Origin: an uncultured Ignavibacteriales bacterium
Lineage (GTDB): Bacteria; Bacteroidota; Ignavibacteria; Ignavibacteriales; Ignavibacteriaceae
Length of the DNA stretch: 57,668 nt
Reading direction: 5' to 3'
Assembly (NCBI GenBank): GCA_903929035.1
Contig: CAIYTF010000074.1
Location: forward strand, 1-57,668
Under the pieces are notes generated by a model. It searched no databases. It worked only from the letters and a program-made list of their open reading frames with translations, and was not told where the DNA came from. Shown here one piece after another: positions 34,903 to 39,124 of this stretch. Each line of letters starts with the position of its first letter. Position 1 is the first letter of the stretch. The position numbers were made by a program, and so were the translations under genes.

Positions 34903-35445
34903 TTAGTCGGCAATTACTTTTAATGCAGGATTAACATCTCGTTTAAGTACGCTTTCTATAGAGGAGAGTGTTCCTTTGATTGAACTTGGACAACTGCCGC
35001 ACGCTCCTTGATAGCGCACGCGAAGAGTGTTACCCGCTAAACCCAAAATCTCTAATCCGCCGCCGTCAAAGGCAAGTGCAGGGCGCACTTTCTGATTTAA
35101 TATCGTGTTAATTTTTTTCATTAATTCATCGGCTTCTTCATCAGTTCCTTTCAGAGCAAACTCTTCCGGCAAAAGCGACTTATCAAATTTAGTGATAAAA
35201 TCAACAAAAGGACGCTGAATTTTTCCCCAATCTGTATCTTTTGATTTTTCTATGGTAATAAATTTCTCCATATAAAATACGGAAACTACACCTTTTATCG
35301 CTAAAATACCTGATGCTAACGGGTCATTTGCTGCATCTTCCTTCGCGGTAAAATGCCGGGTTTCATTTTGCAGCAACCGTTCATTAAGTAAAAATTTCAG
35401 AGCCTGCGGATTTGGTGTCAATTCGACATCAATAACGTGAAACAT
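34903..35445 (-). CDS. nfu: Nfu/NifU-type iron-sulfur scaffold protein
   Basis: A 180-residue protein using ATG 35443-35445 (MFHVIDVELTPNPQALKFLL). The N-terminal Nfu_N domain covers residues 3-88 and the NifU-like C-terminal domain about 105-178, with the cluster-binding CxxC at Cys149 and Cys152 (QGACGSCPSS). It receives and delivers Fe-S clusters to client proteins. An upstream in-frame start at 35475 would add ten residues not seen in the family. It heads the minus-strand block nfu-ogt-hypothetical-era. Confidence 0.93.
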   Translation of the reverse strand: MFHVIDVELTPNPQALKFLLNERLLQNETRHFTAKEDAANDPLASGILAIKGVVSVFYMEKFITIEKSKDTDWGKIQRPFVDFITKFDKSLLPEEFALKGTDEEADELMKKINTILNQKVRPALAFDGGGLEILGLAGNTLRVRYQGACGSCPSSIKGTLSSIESVLKRDVNPALKVIAD

Positions 35446-35688
35446 ACGATTTTCCTTAGAATTTGTGACGGGCAAAAATACTCTTAATTACGTTAAAGTT
35501 CAATTACAATTTTCAGTATTTGCAATTTACTACAAATTATTAACTTACAAACCTATTTGGGATATTTTTTTACTGAACTAAAGAAGCAATTTTATTGGTG
35601 CAAAAACTTGTTAATTTGCTCATCTGAGTTTTTACAACTCATAATTGTATTTTTTGCCATTTATCGTTATAATATTTTTGGTAAGGTA

Positions 35689-36759
35689 CTAAGTGTTAAC
35701 AATAACGTAGTGTAAGTACTCAACAGTCTTAGCGTACTTAAAATAACGATTTTCAGGTCTATCTGCTTTGAACCTATTATATTCTCTGTAAAAACAACCA
35801 TACTCACCGCACTTACTTAGTATTTCTCTGATGTCATCAAACAATAGCAGTCCCTCGTTATTATAGCTGAGAAAAATATATTTTGCTTTTAGCTTTGATA
35901 TTAAATCCACAAATGTTTTTTTTACTTCTGTCTTTGAACAATACAACGATTTCTGATCCTTATAGCCCCTCAATCCTGTCTTCCCATAAATAATAGGATT
36001 GTCATATTTGGCAATTGTCTCAAGAATATGATAATTGGCAGCGTATTGCCTATGATTGTATGGCGGATCTAAATAGACAATGTCACCGGATATTTTTTCA
36101 ACTCTGGAATTTATATCTCCGCAATATACTTCATGATTACGGTCATTAATAATTAATTCCGCGGGCTTAATAATTAACCTATTTTGTGCTGTTCTTTTTA
36201 GTTTTTTTAGAAATGCCCCGTAAACTGAAGCTGTGTTTGCATACTTATCGACAGACTCAAGCAGACTCGTGACAAGAAAAAAATATTCATCATCCGTTAT
36301 ATATTCTTTATTCATCCACATTTCAATTTCTTGACGAATTGCATCGCACCGCATCCCGTTTTCATCAGAAAAATATTGTCGTTCTTCGCCGCATGAAACG
36401 GAACCACCGCTGCAATAATTATTATAGATAAACCCCTCTGTCCCTTCTATACTATTTAAATATTCACAAACCGCGATTCTCCTCAATGACAAAGCCTTGT
36501 ATTGCAATTCTGGAATAATTTCAGAAAGATTTTGAAAATCTAATTCATTGTGGTTTCCAATGTAATGCCGATTAAGAACGTAACTATAATACTGTAAATC
36601 ATTCGCTATTATCTTGAAGCCCTTTTTCTTAAAATGGCTGCCAACAGCACCTGTTCCAGCAAACAAATCGCAGAAAACACTGCAATTGCCATCAACAACT
36701 TGAAAAATCGAGTTTTCAATAAACTCCAACAATGATAATTTACTGCCAATGTAGTTCAT
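35689..36759 (-). CDS. D12-class N6-adenine DNA methyltransferase of a restriction-modification operon
   Basis: A 356-residue alpha-class adenine methyltransferase. Motif X/N-terminus is MNYIGSK, the SAM-binding motif I is DLFAGTGAVG (31-40), a long target-recognition region follows, and the catalytic motif IV is DPPYNHRQYA (231-240). The NYIGSK start and the RQYFSDENGMRCDAIRQEI stretch resemble D12 enzymes such as the NlaIII/FokI-type modification group. It is the last gene of a tight minus-strand operon with a second methyltransferase and a nuclease candidate. The gene contains two of the only four CATG sites found in the window. Recognition site not predictable with confidence. Confidence 0.88.
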   Translation of the reverse strand: MNYIGSKLSLLEFIENSIFQVVDGNCSVFCDLFAGTGAVGSHFKKKGFKIIANDLQYYSYVLNRHYIGNHNELDFQNLSEIIPELQYKALSLRRIAVCEYLNSIEGTEGFIYNNYCSGGSVSCGEERQYFSDENGMRCDAIRQEIEMWMNKEYITDDEYFFLVTSLLESVDKYANTASVYGAFLKKLKRTAQNRLIIKPAELIINDRNHEVYCGDINSRVEKISGDIVYLDPPYNHRQYAANYHILETIAKYDNPIIYGKTGLRGYKDQKSLYCSKTEVKKTFVDLISKLKAKYIFLSYNNEGLLLFDDIREILSKCGEYGCFYREYNRFKADRPENRYFKYAKTVEYLHYVIVNT

Positions 36760-36763
36760 ATTG

Positions 36764-37663
36764 TTAATTGTGTAATAAAATTACAAAGCAGGCAACTTTA
36801 TAATTCTTTTCTCCGGTAGTTTTGTGTTTATAAGTAAAAGTTACCTCAATAGGCTCGTATAAATTAGCGGAATCAATTGTATTCTTAATCTTTTCAATTG
36901 ACACATCCTCGTCAAGATAAACTACCAATAGTCTCGGGTCTGCCCCAAATCTGCCTTCATCTTGGTATGTATATAGATATTTTGCCACTAATTCAGGCTG
37001 TACAACAGCAACTTGTTTCCAATTTTCACCATAGTATCTTTTGAATTCATTTGTCGGGCTTTTTGCCACCTTTTGGTCAAAAGAAATTCCATTGATAAAA
37101 AAATCTACTCCTCTTCTATGGTTTAGTGTTGGAAGAATATTTTCATTTTTCTCAAATATTAAGGTTTCAATAAAATCATTACGAACAGTATTTATTTCCT
37201 TGATTCTCCTATATTTCACTGCTGCAATTTTTACTTTTGTATCTTTTTCGTATCCGTTACTTTTTTCAGAATTGACCCTCTGGACAAACTCATCAAAAGC
37301 TCCTTGCGAAAAAGGCCATGCAATATCGCCTAATTTTAATTTCTCCCATTCCTTAATTAGAATGTCGATTGCATTGACTGCCTCTTTCCCATTCTTATAC
37401 TTCTCAGTTTCAACGAAGAGACTTCGAATAATTGTTTTTCCAATCTCGTACTCCCATGTGTCAACAATCGTTTTCCAAATTTCCTTGGACGTTAAATCCA
37501 ATGCTTCACTGCCTGCATTCTTTCCTCTCGAAATCATATATGTTTTGATTGAATGATTGCAAGTCTGCTTTTTCAATTCCATCAAATATTTACTGGCGTT
37601 CTCCGTATTCCCAATTATCTTTTTTGCCAAGTCATCGGAAAAACTTGATTTTATATGCTTCAT
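36764..37663 (-). CDS. Putative type II restriction endonuclease
   Basis: A 299-residue protein lying between two DNA methyltransferase genes with gaps of three and four bases, so a restriction role is strongly suggested by context. I recognise no named family. A plausible PD-(D/E)xK core is present: Asp187 in HRRGVDFFINGI followed by Asp196-Gln-Lys198 (FDQK), with a basic N-terminal half. The C-terminal half has strand-like segments (RLLVVYLDEDV, VACFVILLHN). It carries the other two CATG sites of the window. Confidence 0.65.
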   Translation of the reverse strand: MKHIKSSFSDDLAKKIIGNTENASKYLMELKKQTCNHSIKTYMISRGKNAGSEALDLTSKEIWKTIVDTWEYEIGKTIIRSLFVETEKYKNGKEAVNAIDILIKEWEKLKLGDIAWPFSQGAFDEFVQRVNSEKSNGYEKDTKVKIAAVKYRRIKEINTVRNDFIETLIFEKNENILPTLNHRRGVDFFINGISFDQKVAKSPTNEFKRYYGENWKQVAVVQPELVAKYLYTYQDEGRFGADPRLLVVYLDEDVSIEKIKNTIDSANLYEPIEVTFTYKHKTTGEKNYKVACFVILLHN

Positions 37664-37666
37664 ATA

Positions 37667-38449
37667 TTAATTCTTAAATAGTAAAATATACTCGTGTTTA
37701 AAGATAAAATAATCACTTGACAAAGCGCGGTATCGCCAAATAGCTTCTTTATTTTGCTTTGCCCTATTACCCTCCATATTTTTCACAACAATACTCTTGA
37801 GCGTCAATCCTAAGTTTTGTGCTGCCTGCATACAGTAAAACCCAAGAGGCACCCATTTCCCTGCTGTATATTTGTCTCCGATAACAATTGCTAAGTATCT
37901 TCCCTTTTCTAATATTCCTATCGTATTATTTATGACCGCGGAAAAACTTTCTAAAAATCCTTCAAGTGTAGGAGCATTGGATAAATCTTCTTTCATATCA
38001 CTAAACCTAATAATATCGCTATAAGGGGGATGGAGGATGGCAAGTTGCACAAATGGGTTTCCTTGTTTAACAATACTTTCCTTCACTCTCTTGAAAGTTT
38101 CCGGTTGAGTACTATCACCTGCAAGTAAATTGCAGTAAAGAAAATTAGGATCAATCTTACTTTGTATTTCCACAATTAAGTCGGAACGAATATCTACTCC
38201 AATGAAATTTCGCTGCAATGTTTCAGCCTCATAAGCAGTTGTACCGCTTCCAACAAAAGGATCAAATACAATATCATTTTTCTTAGTGTATCGCAATATA
38301 AGTTGGCGTGGAATCTGTGGAACAAAATTGCCGTGATAAAACCCGCTATGCTTCCCTGTTTTATCACGTTCCTTAATAATCCAGAGACTATCAGTCCAGA
38401 TCTCGGAGTCTTTCCACTTTTCTATGTCCAAATCATTAAATTTCGGCAT
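37667..38449 (-). CDS. Second DNA methyltransferase of the restriction-modification operon
   Basis: A 260-residue amino-methyltransferase with SAM motif I VFDPFVGSGTT (61-71) preceding a catalytic motif HPPYSD (140-145), a His-for-Asp variant of DPPY seen in some N4-cytosine or N6-adenine enzymes. Little sequence separates the motifs, so the target-recognition region must lie in the N-terminal or C-terminal parts. It is first in the operon, followed by the nuclease and the D12 enzyme. Two methyltransferases of different classes plus one nuclease suggest an asymmetric recognition site with each strand methylated by one enzyme, which is inference. Confidence 0.82.
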   Translation of the reverse strand: MPKFNDLDIEKWKDSEIWTDSLWIIKERDKTGKHSGFYHGNFVPQIPRQLILRYTKKNDIVFDPFVGSGTTAYEAETLQRNFIGVDIRSDLIVEIQSKIDPNFLYCNLLAGDSTQPETFKRVKESIVKQGNPFVQLAILHPPYSDIIRFSDMKEDLSNAPTLEGFLESFSAVINNTIGILEKGRYLAIVIGDKYTAGKWVPLGFYCMQAAQNLGLTLKSIVVKNMEGNRAKQNKEAIWRYRALSSDYFIFKHEYILLFKN

Positions 38450-38641: not shown

Positions 38642-39124
38642 ATGGTTAACGAAAAATTTGAAGAAGCATTTGCTCTAATTGTTGAGGGAAAAAAATACGC
38701 GGAAAAAGGAATTGGCTTTCGTGCTATGAGGTGCTACCGTGCTTCTTTGCGCGTTTTCCCAACTCCGGAGGCACATTTTCGACTGGGTGAGGAATATTTT
38801 TCGCGTTATAATTATACCAAAGCAGCCAAGCAGTTTATGATAGCGATGGAATTAGACCCCTATTTTCCCCTCCCTGTTTATGGAATGGCAAGTGTTTACT
38901 TTGCAGTGCTGCGTTTTGAAAAAGCAATACTTTGGTTTGAGAAAGCAATTACTATGGGGGATATTAATTTGAAAGCCCTGAGTTATTTTGGCATTGGACA
39001 GGTTCTTGAAGAACAAGGTAACTCAACAAAAGCTCTCGAGTTTTATTTTAAGGCACACAAGTTAGTACCTGATGATTCGAAAACGCTTGATTCTATTGTT
39101 TATTTGCTGGCGTGCAGAAACTAA
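38642..39124 (+). CDS. TPR-repeat protein
   Basis: A 160-residue protein made of about four tetratricopeptide repeats: GIGFRAMRCYRASLRVFP, AHFRLGEEYFSRYNYTKAAK, YGMASVYFAVLRFEKAILWF and YFGIGQVLEEQGNSTKALEF. No signal peptide, so it is cytoplasmic and likely a protein-interaction adaptor. It is immediately upstream of a longer TPR protein on the same strand (128-base gap). Confidence 0.75.
   Translation: MVNEKFEEAFALIVEGKKYAEKGIGFRAMRCYRASLRVFPTPEAHFRLGEEYFSRYNYTKAAKQFMIAMELDPYFPLPVYGMASVYFAVLRFEKAILWFEKAITMGDINLKALSYFGIGQVLEEQGNSTKALEFYFKAHKLVPDDSKTLDSIVYLLACRN

Follow-up and report, generated by a model that had tools for sequence, protein, structure and literature searches.

We conclude, with a probability of roughly 80%, that three adjacent genes on an Ignavibacteriales contig form a Type II restriction-modification system whose nuclease is the product of the middle gene, which we call R299. 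The genes lie in a 57,668 nt stretch that was analysed as a whole and is referred to here as the window (contig CAIYTF010000074.1 of assembly GCA_903929035.1, positions 1 to 57,668, forward strand; Table 1). Strong support for the prediction that R299 is a PD-(D/E)xK restriction endonuclease comes from the invariance of Glu166, Asp187, Asp196 and Lys198, and the foreign origin of the operon, by recent transfer, is well supported. In the mechanism we propose, a compact Type II operon would have been acquired horizontally, R299 would use the metal site formed by these four residues to cut a specific DNA target when it is unmodified, and an HPPY-type and a D12-class methyltransferase would modify the target in the host DNA and so guard the host. 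One methyltransferase of either kind is probably enough as a guard in the R299 family, and this operon has both. We infer the nuclease activity of R299, the sharing of one target and the protection by one mark from the evidence that follows.

Table 1. Positions in the window of the operon, its genes and their predicted functional residues.
Feature	Position	Strand	Evidence
Gene 1, HPPY methyltransferase, 260 aa	37667..38449	-	ORF, translation, Pfam PF01555 (N6_N4_Mtase) E=3.1e-26
HPPY tetrapeptide codons (motif IV position)	38021..38032	-	translation; conservation among homologues
Gene 2, R299, putative PD-(D/E)xK restriction endonuclease, 299 aa	36764..37663	-	ORF, relatives, alignment, methyltransferase linkage
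R299 predicted active-site stretch, Glu166 to Lys198 (E166, D187, D196-Q-K198)	37070..37168	-	invariance
Gene 3, D12-class N6-adenine methyltransferase, 356 aa	35689..36759	-	ORF, translation, PF02086 (MethyltransfD12) E=2.5e-46
Foreign block, whole operon	35689..38449	.	all 4 window CATGs, few CGCGs

The coordinates, gene order and spacing that a preliminary description had read from this DNA agree exactly with the list of open reading frames, all three genes being on the minus strand with 3 bases between the HPPY methyltransferase and R299 and 4 bases between R299 and the D12 methyltransferase. The operon consists of these three ORFs only, and a separate specificity or helicase subunit is absent from it. 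Its neighbours are a NifU-like gene (34903-35475) and a TPR-like gene (38642-39124), both named by reading their translations. We saw no conspicuous integration repeats around the operon, and promoter-like sites at the operon were no more frequent than the shuffle level.

Both outer genes score far above the Pfam cut-offs of their families (93.2 bits against 26.7 for gene 1 and N6_N4_Mtase, 158.9 bits against 22 for gene 3 and MethyltransfD12). The earlier reading of the locus as a restriction-modification operon with two dissimilar methyltransferases is supported. The D12 enzyme has DLFAGTG at residues 31-37 and DPPY at 231-234, and the DPPY is kept in 19/19 distinct homologues. Gene 1 has FDPFVGSG at residues 62-69 and HPPY at 140-143. 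The usual motif IV of N6_N4_Mtase enzymes is (D/N/S)PP(Y/F/W), and gene 1 departs from it by having His in place of Asp/Asn/Ser, a feature kept in all 33 of its distinct homologues (33/33). Because the remaining domain fits, we regard gene 1 as a variant of N6_N4_Mtase and not as a non-member.

R299 had been described as a nuclease of unrecognised family, and this held in the libraries we searched: none of Pfam, NCBIfam, PADLOC, PHROGs and PDB offered a convincing match. The best Pfam match was DUF7570 at 16.6 bits, below its cut-off of 27, PADLOC gave no match at E<=1, and profile searches of PDB gave chance-level matches only. When two relatives and two remote nucleases were scanned against PADLOC, the sole match was PDC-M03B (E=0.017) for one of them (L013). 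The family is thus unnamed in Pfam, NCBIfam, PADLOC and PHROGs, and its newness is limited to these libraries; REBASE may well list members as predicted enzymes. In literature searches, judged from the openings of abstracts, we did not recognise a description of the nuclease family.

The possible PD-(D/E)xK core proposed earlier (Asp187, Asp196-Gln-Lys198) is present, and we add Glu166 to it. In an alignment of the window protein with 49 relatives, reaching down to 18-23% identity to R299, E166, D187, D196 and K198 are invariant in 50/50 sequences, as are Y151, N158, Y231, Q234, R238 and R244. The order and kind of the residues E166, D187 and D196-x-K198 fit a PD-(D/E)xK metal site. R299 resembles PD-(D/E)xK nucleases in having Glu, Asp and then Asp-x-Lys, all invariant, and differs in that no solved nuclease of this kind matches it in sequence or structure.

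The full-length AlphaFold model of R299 has a mean pLDDT of 82.8 and a pTM of 0.76, and is weakest at residues 181-200, around the active site (pLDDT 60-70); modelling residues 133-299 separately gave a poor result (pLDDT 62.6). The fold comparison that had been suggested for the 299-residue protein was run on the full model with Foldseek against PDB, against BFVD and with VIA-align, and nothing rose above noise. There was no match at E<=0.001 in PDB or BFVD (best BFVD match E=2e-3 at TM 0.14), and VIA-align found no Z of 5 or more, the best being 3.8 over 43 residues. Because the full model gave no fold match, we base the assignment of R299 as a nuclease on its invariant residues and on the gene context.

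One scan of genome contigs located R299 relatives, 51-70% identical to it, at 15 loci. These come from Bacteroidota, Acidobacteriota, Chlorobiota and Campylobacterota, from bins of the candidate phyla radiation, and from one bin each of Methylomirabilis and Rickettsiales. A profile of this close set found remote relatives in the phylum of the host, and an extended profile had a match at E<=0.001 in 44/391 genomes of a class sample and 21/395 of a phylum sample, two samples that overlap and in which some of the matched genomes supplied rows of the profile. A family this frequent in the class, and unnamed in libraries, would be a source of candidate restriction enzymes, and the lack of a useful Pfam, NCBIfam, PADLOC or PHROGs match would be a gap in the annotation of defence systems. 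No relatives of R299 were found in viral contigs (short-pattern prefilter), plasmids or phages. A remote 277-aa form of the nuclease had one match on a Priestia megaterium plasmid (E=3e-5), and the same kind of search with the form at L023 gave no match.

Besides the 277-aa form, the nuclease occurs as the R299 form of 285-304 aa, a long form of about 360-390 aa and a core-only form of 204-240 aa, and hhalign links the R299, long and core-only forms with probabilities of 98.2, 96.5 and 99.6. The core-only forms suggest that recognition and cutting may share one small domain. In one close locus the nuclease gene is broken (L014), and in another it reads through in-frame TGA codons (L017).

The base usage of the operon had been said to differ from its surroundings, with few CGCG and with CATG present, in support of recent transfer, and both parts of this were upheld. 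The GC content is 34.7% in the operon and 39.2% elsewhere in the window, and CGCG occurs 4 times in the 2,761 bases of the operon against 346 times in the 54,907 bases elsewhere. The window has four CATGs (36132, 36392, 37317 and 37455), every one of them inside the operon, which has 4 of about 5 expected, while the rest of the window has 0 of about 129 expected; by length arithmetic, four CATGs placed at random in the window would all fall within the operon with a probability of about 5e-6. In a 362-kb sample of the host, made up of the window and 20 stretches of the host genome, the observed/expected ratio is 0.04 for CATG (30 in 362 kb), 0.13 for CTAG and 0.17 for GGCC. The host also strongly avoids CATATG, GTATAC, AGCGCT and GAGCTC in this sample. 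Since the operon keeps CATGs that the host avoids, we believe that it came from a CATG-tolerant donor and arrived too recently to have lost them. Nothing here ties the CATG avoidance of the host to the R299 operon. CATG is not supported as the target: carriers of the nuclease range from 0.05 to 0.79 observed/expected, and the operon itself holds four.

In total 22/30 CATGs of the host sample are in three clusters, in the operon and on contigs C110 and C150, so that of the 26 outside the operon 18 are in two clusters, and such clusters may mark foreign DNA in this host. The cluster on C150 is beside a D12 gene: there, a D12 gene and a 355-aa ORF (L161 206-2060) have four CATGs in 0.73 kb and adjoin a 1265-aa ORF, and are perhaps a second acquired restriction-modification pair. 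On C110 (L157 1480-3604) there are fourteen CATGs in 2.1 kb, which represent either acquired DNA or an assembly mixture. The host also has a paralogue of R299, a remote family member beside a 485-aa methyltransferase on C82 (L022 6260-8847). It looks older than the operon in the window because the 13-kb stretch around it has no CATG.

After removal of duplicates and of loci without the nuclease gene from 86 loci, 60 non-redundant nuclease loci remained besides that of the window, and a methyltransferase ORF, in some cases a fragment, was in the fetched stretch at 58 of them; the exceptions are L057, at a contig edge, and L070. Because the loci were fetched through the nuclease, this linkage shows that the nuclease accompanies methyltransferases and not the reverse. 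The partners are HPPY enzymes, either short (257-273 aa) or long (341-388 aa), the D12 subfamily to which gene 3 belongs, a second D12 subfamily that also occurs fused to the nuclease in proteins of 728-739 aa, and an N6_N4-type enzyme of 430-511 aa. In the R299 clade short HPPY enzymes are paired with D12; long HPPY enzymes occur without it. L012 and L014 are exceptions. The order HPPY-nuclease-D12 is found at 8/15 close loci (L003-L009, L011) and at one further locus (L054, in G497). Four loci have the nuclease and D12, with HPPY not found (L010, L015, L016 and L017, the last with just 0.66 kb before the nuclease), and three have HPPY with no neighbouring D12 (L012, L013, L014).

We built a tree of the nuclease from 50 rows, the window and 49/60 relative loci; L014, L017, L032, L035, L038, L057, L069, L070, L075, L077 and L085 were omitted because they were truncated or broken, nearly duplicated another locus or were not taken up. 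Distributing the five partner classes over this tree takes 10 changes, with a minimum of 4 and a shuffled mean of 28.6 (as low in 0/200 shuffles), the label 'D12 only' being unsure for L081, whose contig begins at the nuclease gene. Deep branchings in the tree are poorly supported. The window is in a 15-row clade (support 100/100) in which 10 loci have both methyltransferases, 3 have only D12 and 2 have only HPPY, and well-supported sister rows within this clade differ in their methyltransferases (L008/L010 at 100/99, L015/L054 at 100/98, L011/L016 at 99/87). We searched the assemblies under 12 handles for the missing partners, which are 11 distinct assemblies since G486 and G713 give identical coordinates. 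No D12 relative was found in the HPPY-only assemblies G486 (=G713), G401, G537, G478 and G714, and the D12-only assemblies G427, G396 and G717 likewise yielded no HPPY relative, absences that are uncertain in several cases because the bins are incomplete (0.7 Mb for G714, 1.3 Mb for G717). In the bin of L012 a D12 relative (43% identity) lies on a different contig, and remote N6_N4 enzymes are present in G715 and G716.

The preliminary description had also taken two different methyltransferases to imply an asymmetric target. Two unlike methyltransferases are the usual sign of such a target but not proof of it, and the implication is not supported as stated, since each enzyme is found without the other in the same nuclease clade and the DpnII system offers a precedent for another arrangement (PMC3573125, excerpted text). 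Because each methyltransferase occurs alone in the clade, a target that each can protect alone becomes more likely, and with the caveat that relatives may differ in target, we give even odds that the target of the window operon is symmetric or redundantly guarded, with each enzyme protecting alone.

The first alternative to this is an asymmetric target (Type IIA/IIS) of which the HPPY enzyme marks one strand and the D12 enzyme the other, both being needed, and we consider it possible but doubtful. In its favour, the first half of the D12 enzyme is matched by a 646-aa PADLOC methyltransferase model, presumably as expected of a two-domain enzyme of an SfaNI-like asymmetric system. Two methyltransferases are usually read in this way, as in the SfaNI-like systems described in the excerpted text of PMC9799307. 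These Type IIS systems (R + M1 + M2) resemble the window operon in having one nuclease and two methyltransferase genes per operon, but R299 falls in no family of Pfam, NCBIfam or PADLOC, whereas the same excerpt places the CsaDORF2754P nuclease of a related Caldicellulosiruptor system in the AlwI family, and relatives of R299 may miss either methyltransferase. If an asymmetric site needed both enzymes, a locus with a single methyltransferase should be harmful to its host unless one mark gave enough protection, so the D12-only and HPPY-only loci within the same nuclease clade argue against this alternative. The core-only nucleases are also hardly large enough for recognition and cleavage to reside in separate domains. 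Loci with a single methyltransferase are no proof of a symmetric target, because in vitro a lone methyltransferase was enough to shield DNA from SfaNI, an enzyme with an asymmetric site (PMC9799307, excerpted text).

The R299 family may be a plug-in nuclease, around which unrelated methyltransferases, namely HPPY enzymes, the two D12 subfamilies, the 430-511 aa N6_N4 enzyme and the fused D12, are swapped as guards, and the three-gene operon would be a two-guard intermediate. We offer this tentatively and would sooner bet against it than for it. If true, such exchange would let a restriction system change its methylated base while keeping its target, and would open to experiment how the methyltransferase that guards a host can be replaced without the death of that host.

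An improbable alternative is a division of labour like that of the DpnII system, in which the D12 enzyme guards double-stranded DNA and the HPPY enzyme guards single-stranded DNA entering by transformation. DpnII strains have two unlike methylases, DpnM for double-stranded and DpnA for single-stranded DNA, according to the excerpted text of PMC3573125, and as in the window, D12 and N6_N4-type methyltransferases are together with a nuclease. In Fusobacterium, a D12 enzyme and a DpnII nuclease (PF04556, E=4.7e-109) are encoded in the same gene row as an HPPY relative, and DpnA entries (E about 3e-7) are among the uniformly weak PDB matches of the window's HPPY enzyme. R299 itself has no match to PF04556, the DpnII nuclease family, in Pfam. 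Against a split of this kind, the HPPY enzyme is the sole methyltransferase found beside the nuclease in many loci, and because of this it should protect double-stranded DNA there.

GATC, the target that would go with a DpnII-like system, was suggested by its depletion in some carriers but failed a control within one family. We compared 20-kb samples of 19 carriers (G139 left out) and 18 genomes taken as non-carriers (G066, at 1.8 kb, and G013, a carrier, left out), of which 12 had no match in profile searches and G058, G080, G083, G090, G092 and G095 were rated on a weaker search only. GATC observed/expected was 0.03-0.14 in the four D12b-R carriers G353, G572, G580 and G639, 0.04 in G486, 0.20 in G577 (broken nuclease), 0.27 in G497, 0.41-0.84 in the remaining 12 carriers and 0.46-1.01 in the 18 presumed non-carriers. 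Close to the nuclease genes, G402 had no GATC where 28 were expected, the ratio was 0.16 at G666 and 0.66 at G033, and in the flanks of the 15 close loci the ratio ranged from 0.00 to 1.02. For the control, in family f11, we counted close GATC pairs. Carriers had 12 (G572), 17 (G580), 14 (G639), 58 (G666), 61 (G724) and 189 (G730). Among non-carriers, two of the same genus as G572 and G580 had 6 (G654) and 17 (G599), three of genus g90 had 0, and the others had 1 to 618. Because depletion tracks lineage and not carriage, GATC is not established as the target.

Very improbably, R299 is an accessory or modification-dependent nuclease attached to the methyltransferases and not a restriction endonuclease, a reading that its lack of a fold or family match would allow but that is hard to reconcile with a nuclease that stays constant while the methyltransferases vary, with its invariant predicted catalytic residues, with the absence of any other nuclease candidate among the operon's three ORFs and with the existence of D12-nuclease fusions.

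The surroundings of some relatives are also of interest. In the Fusobacterium vincentii row (L040 1363-4729), the DpnII nuclease, D12 enzyme and HPPY relative are accompanied by a possibly Mrr-like ORF, from reading its translation. At L007 (5902-7581) an AbiU-like gene with an AIPR domain is between the nuclease and the D12 methyltransferase. Two other cassettes have a defence-island setting, with a Dsr1-like ORF directly beside the cassette at L016 (2114-4969) and a PDC-S06-like AAA ORF directly beside it at L009 (6999-9371).
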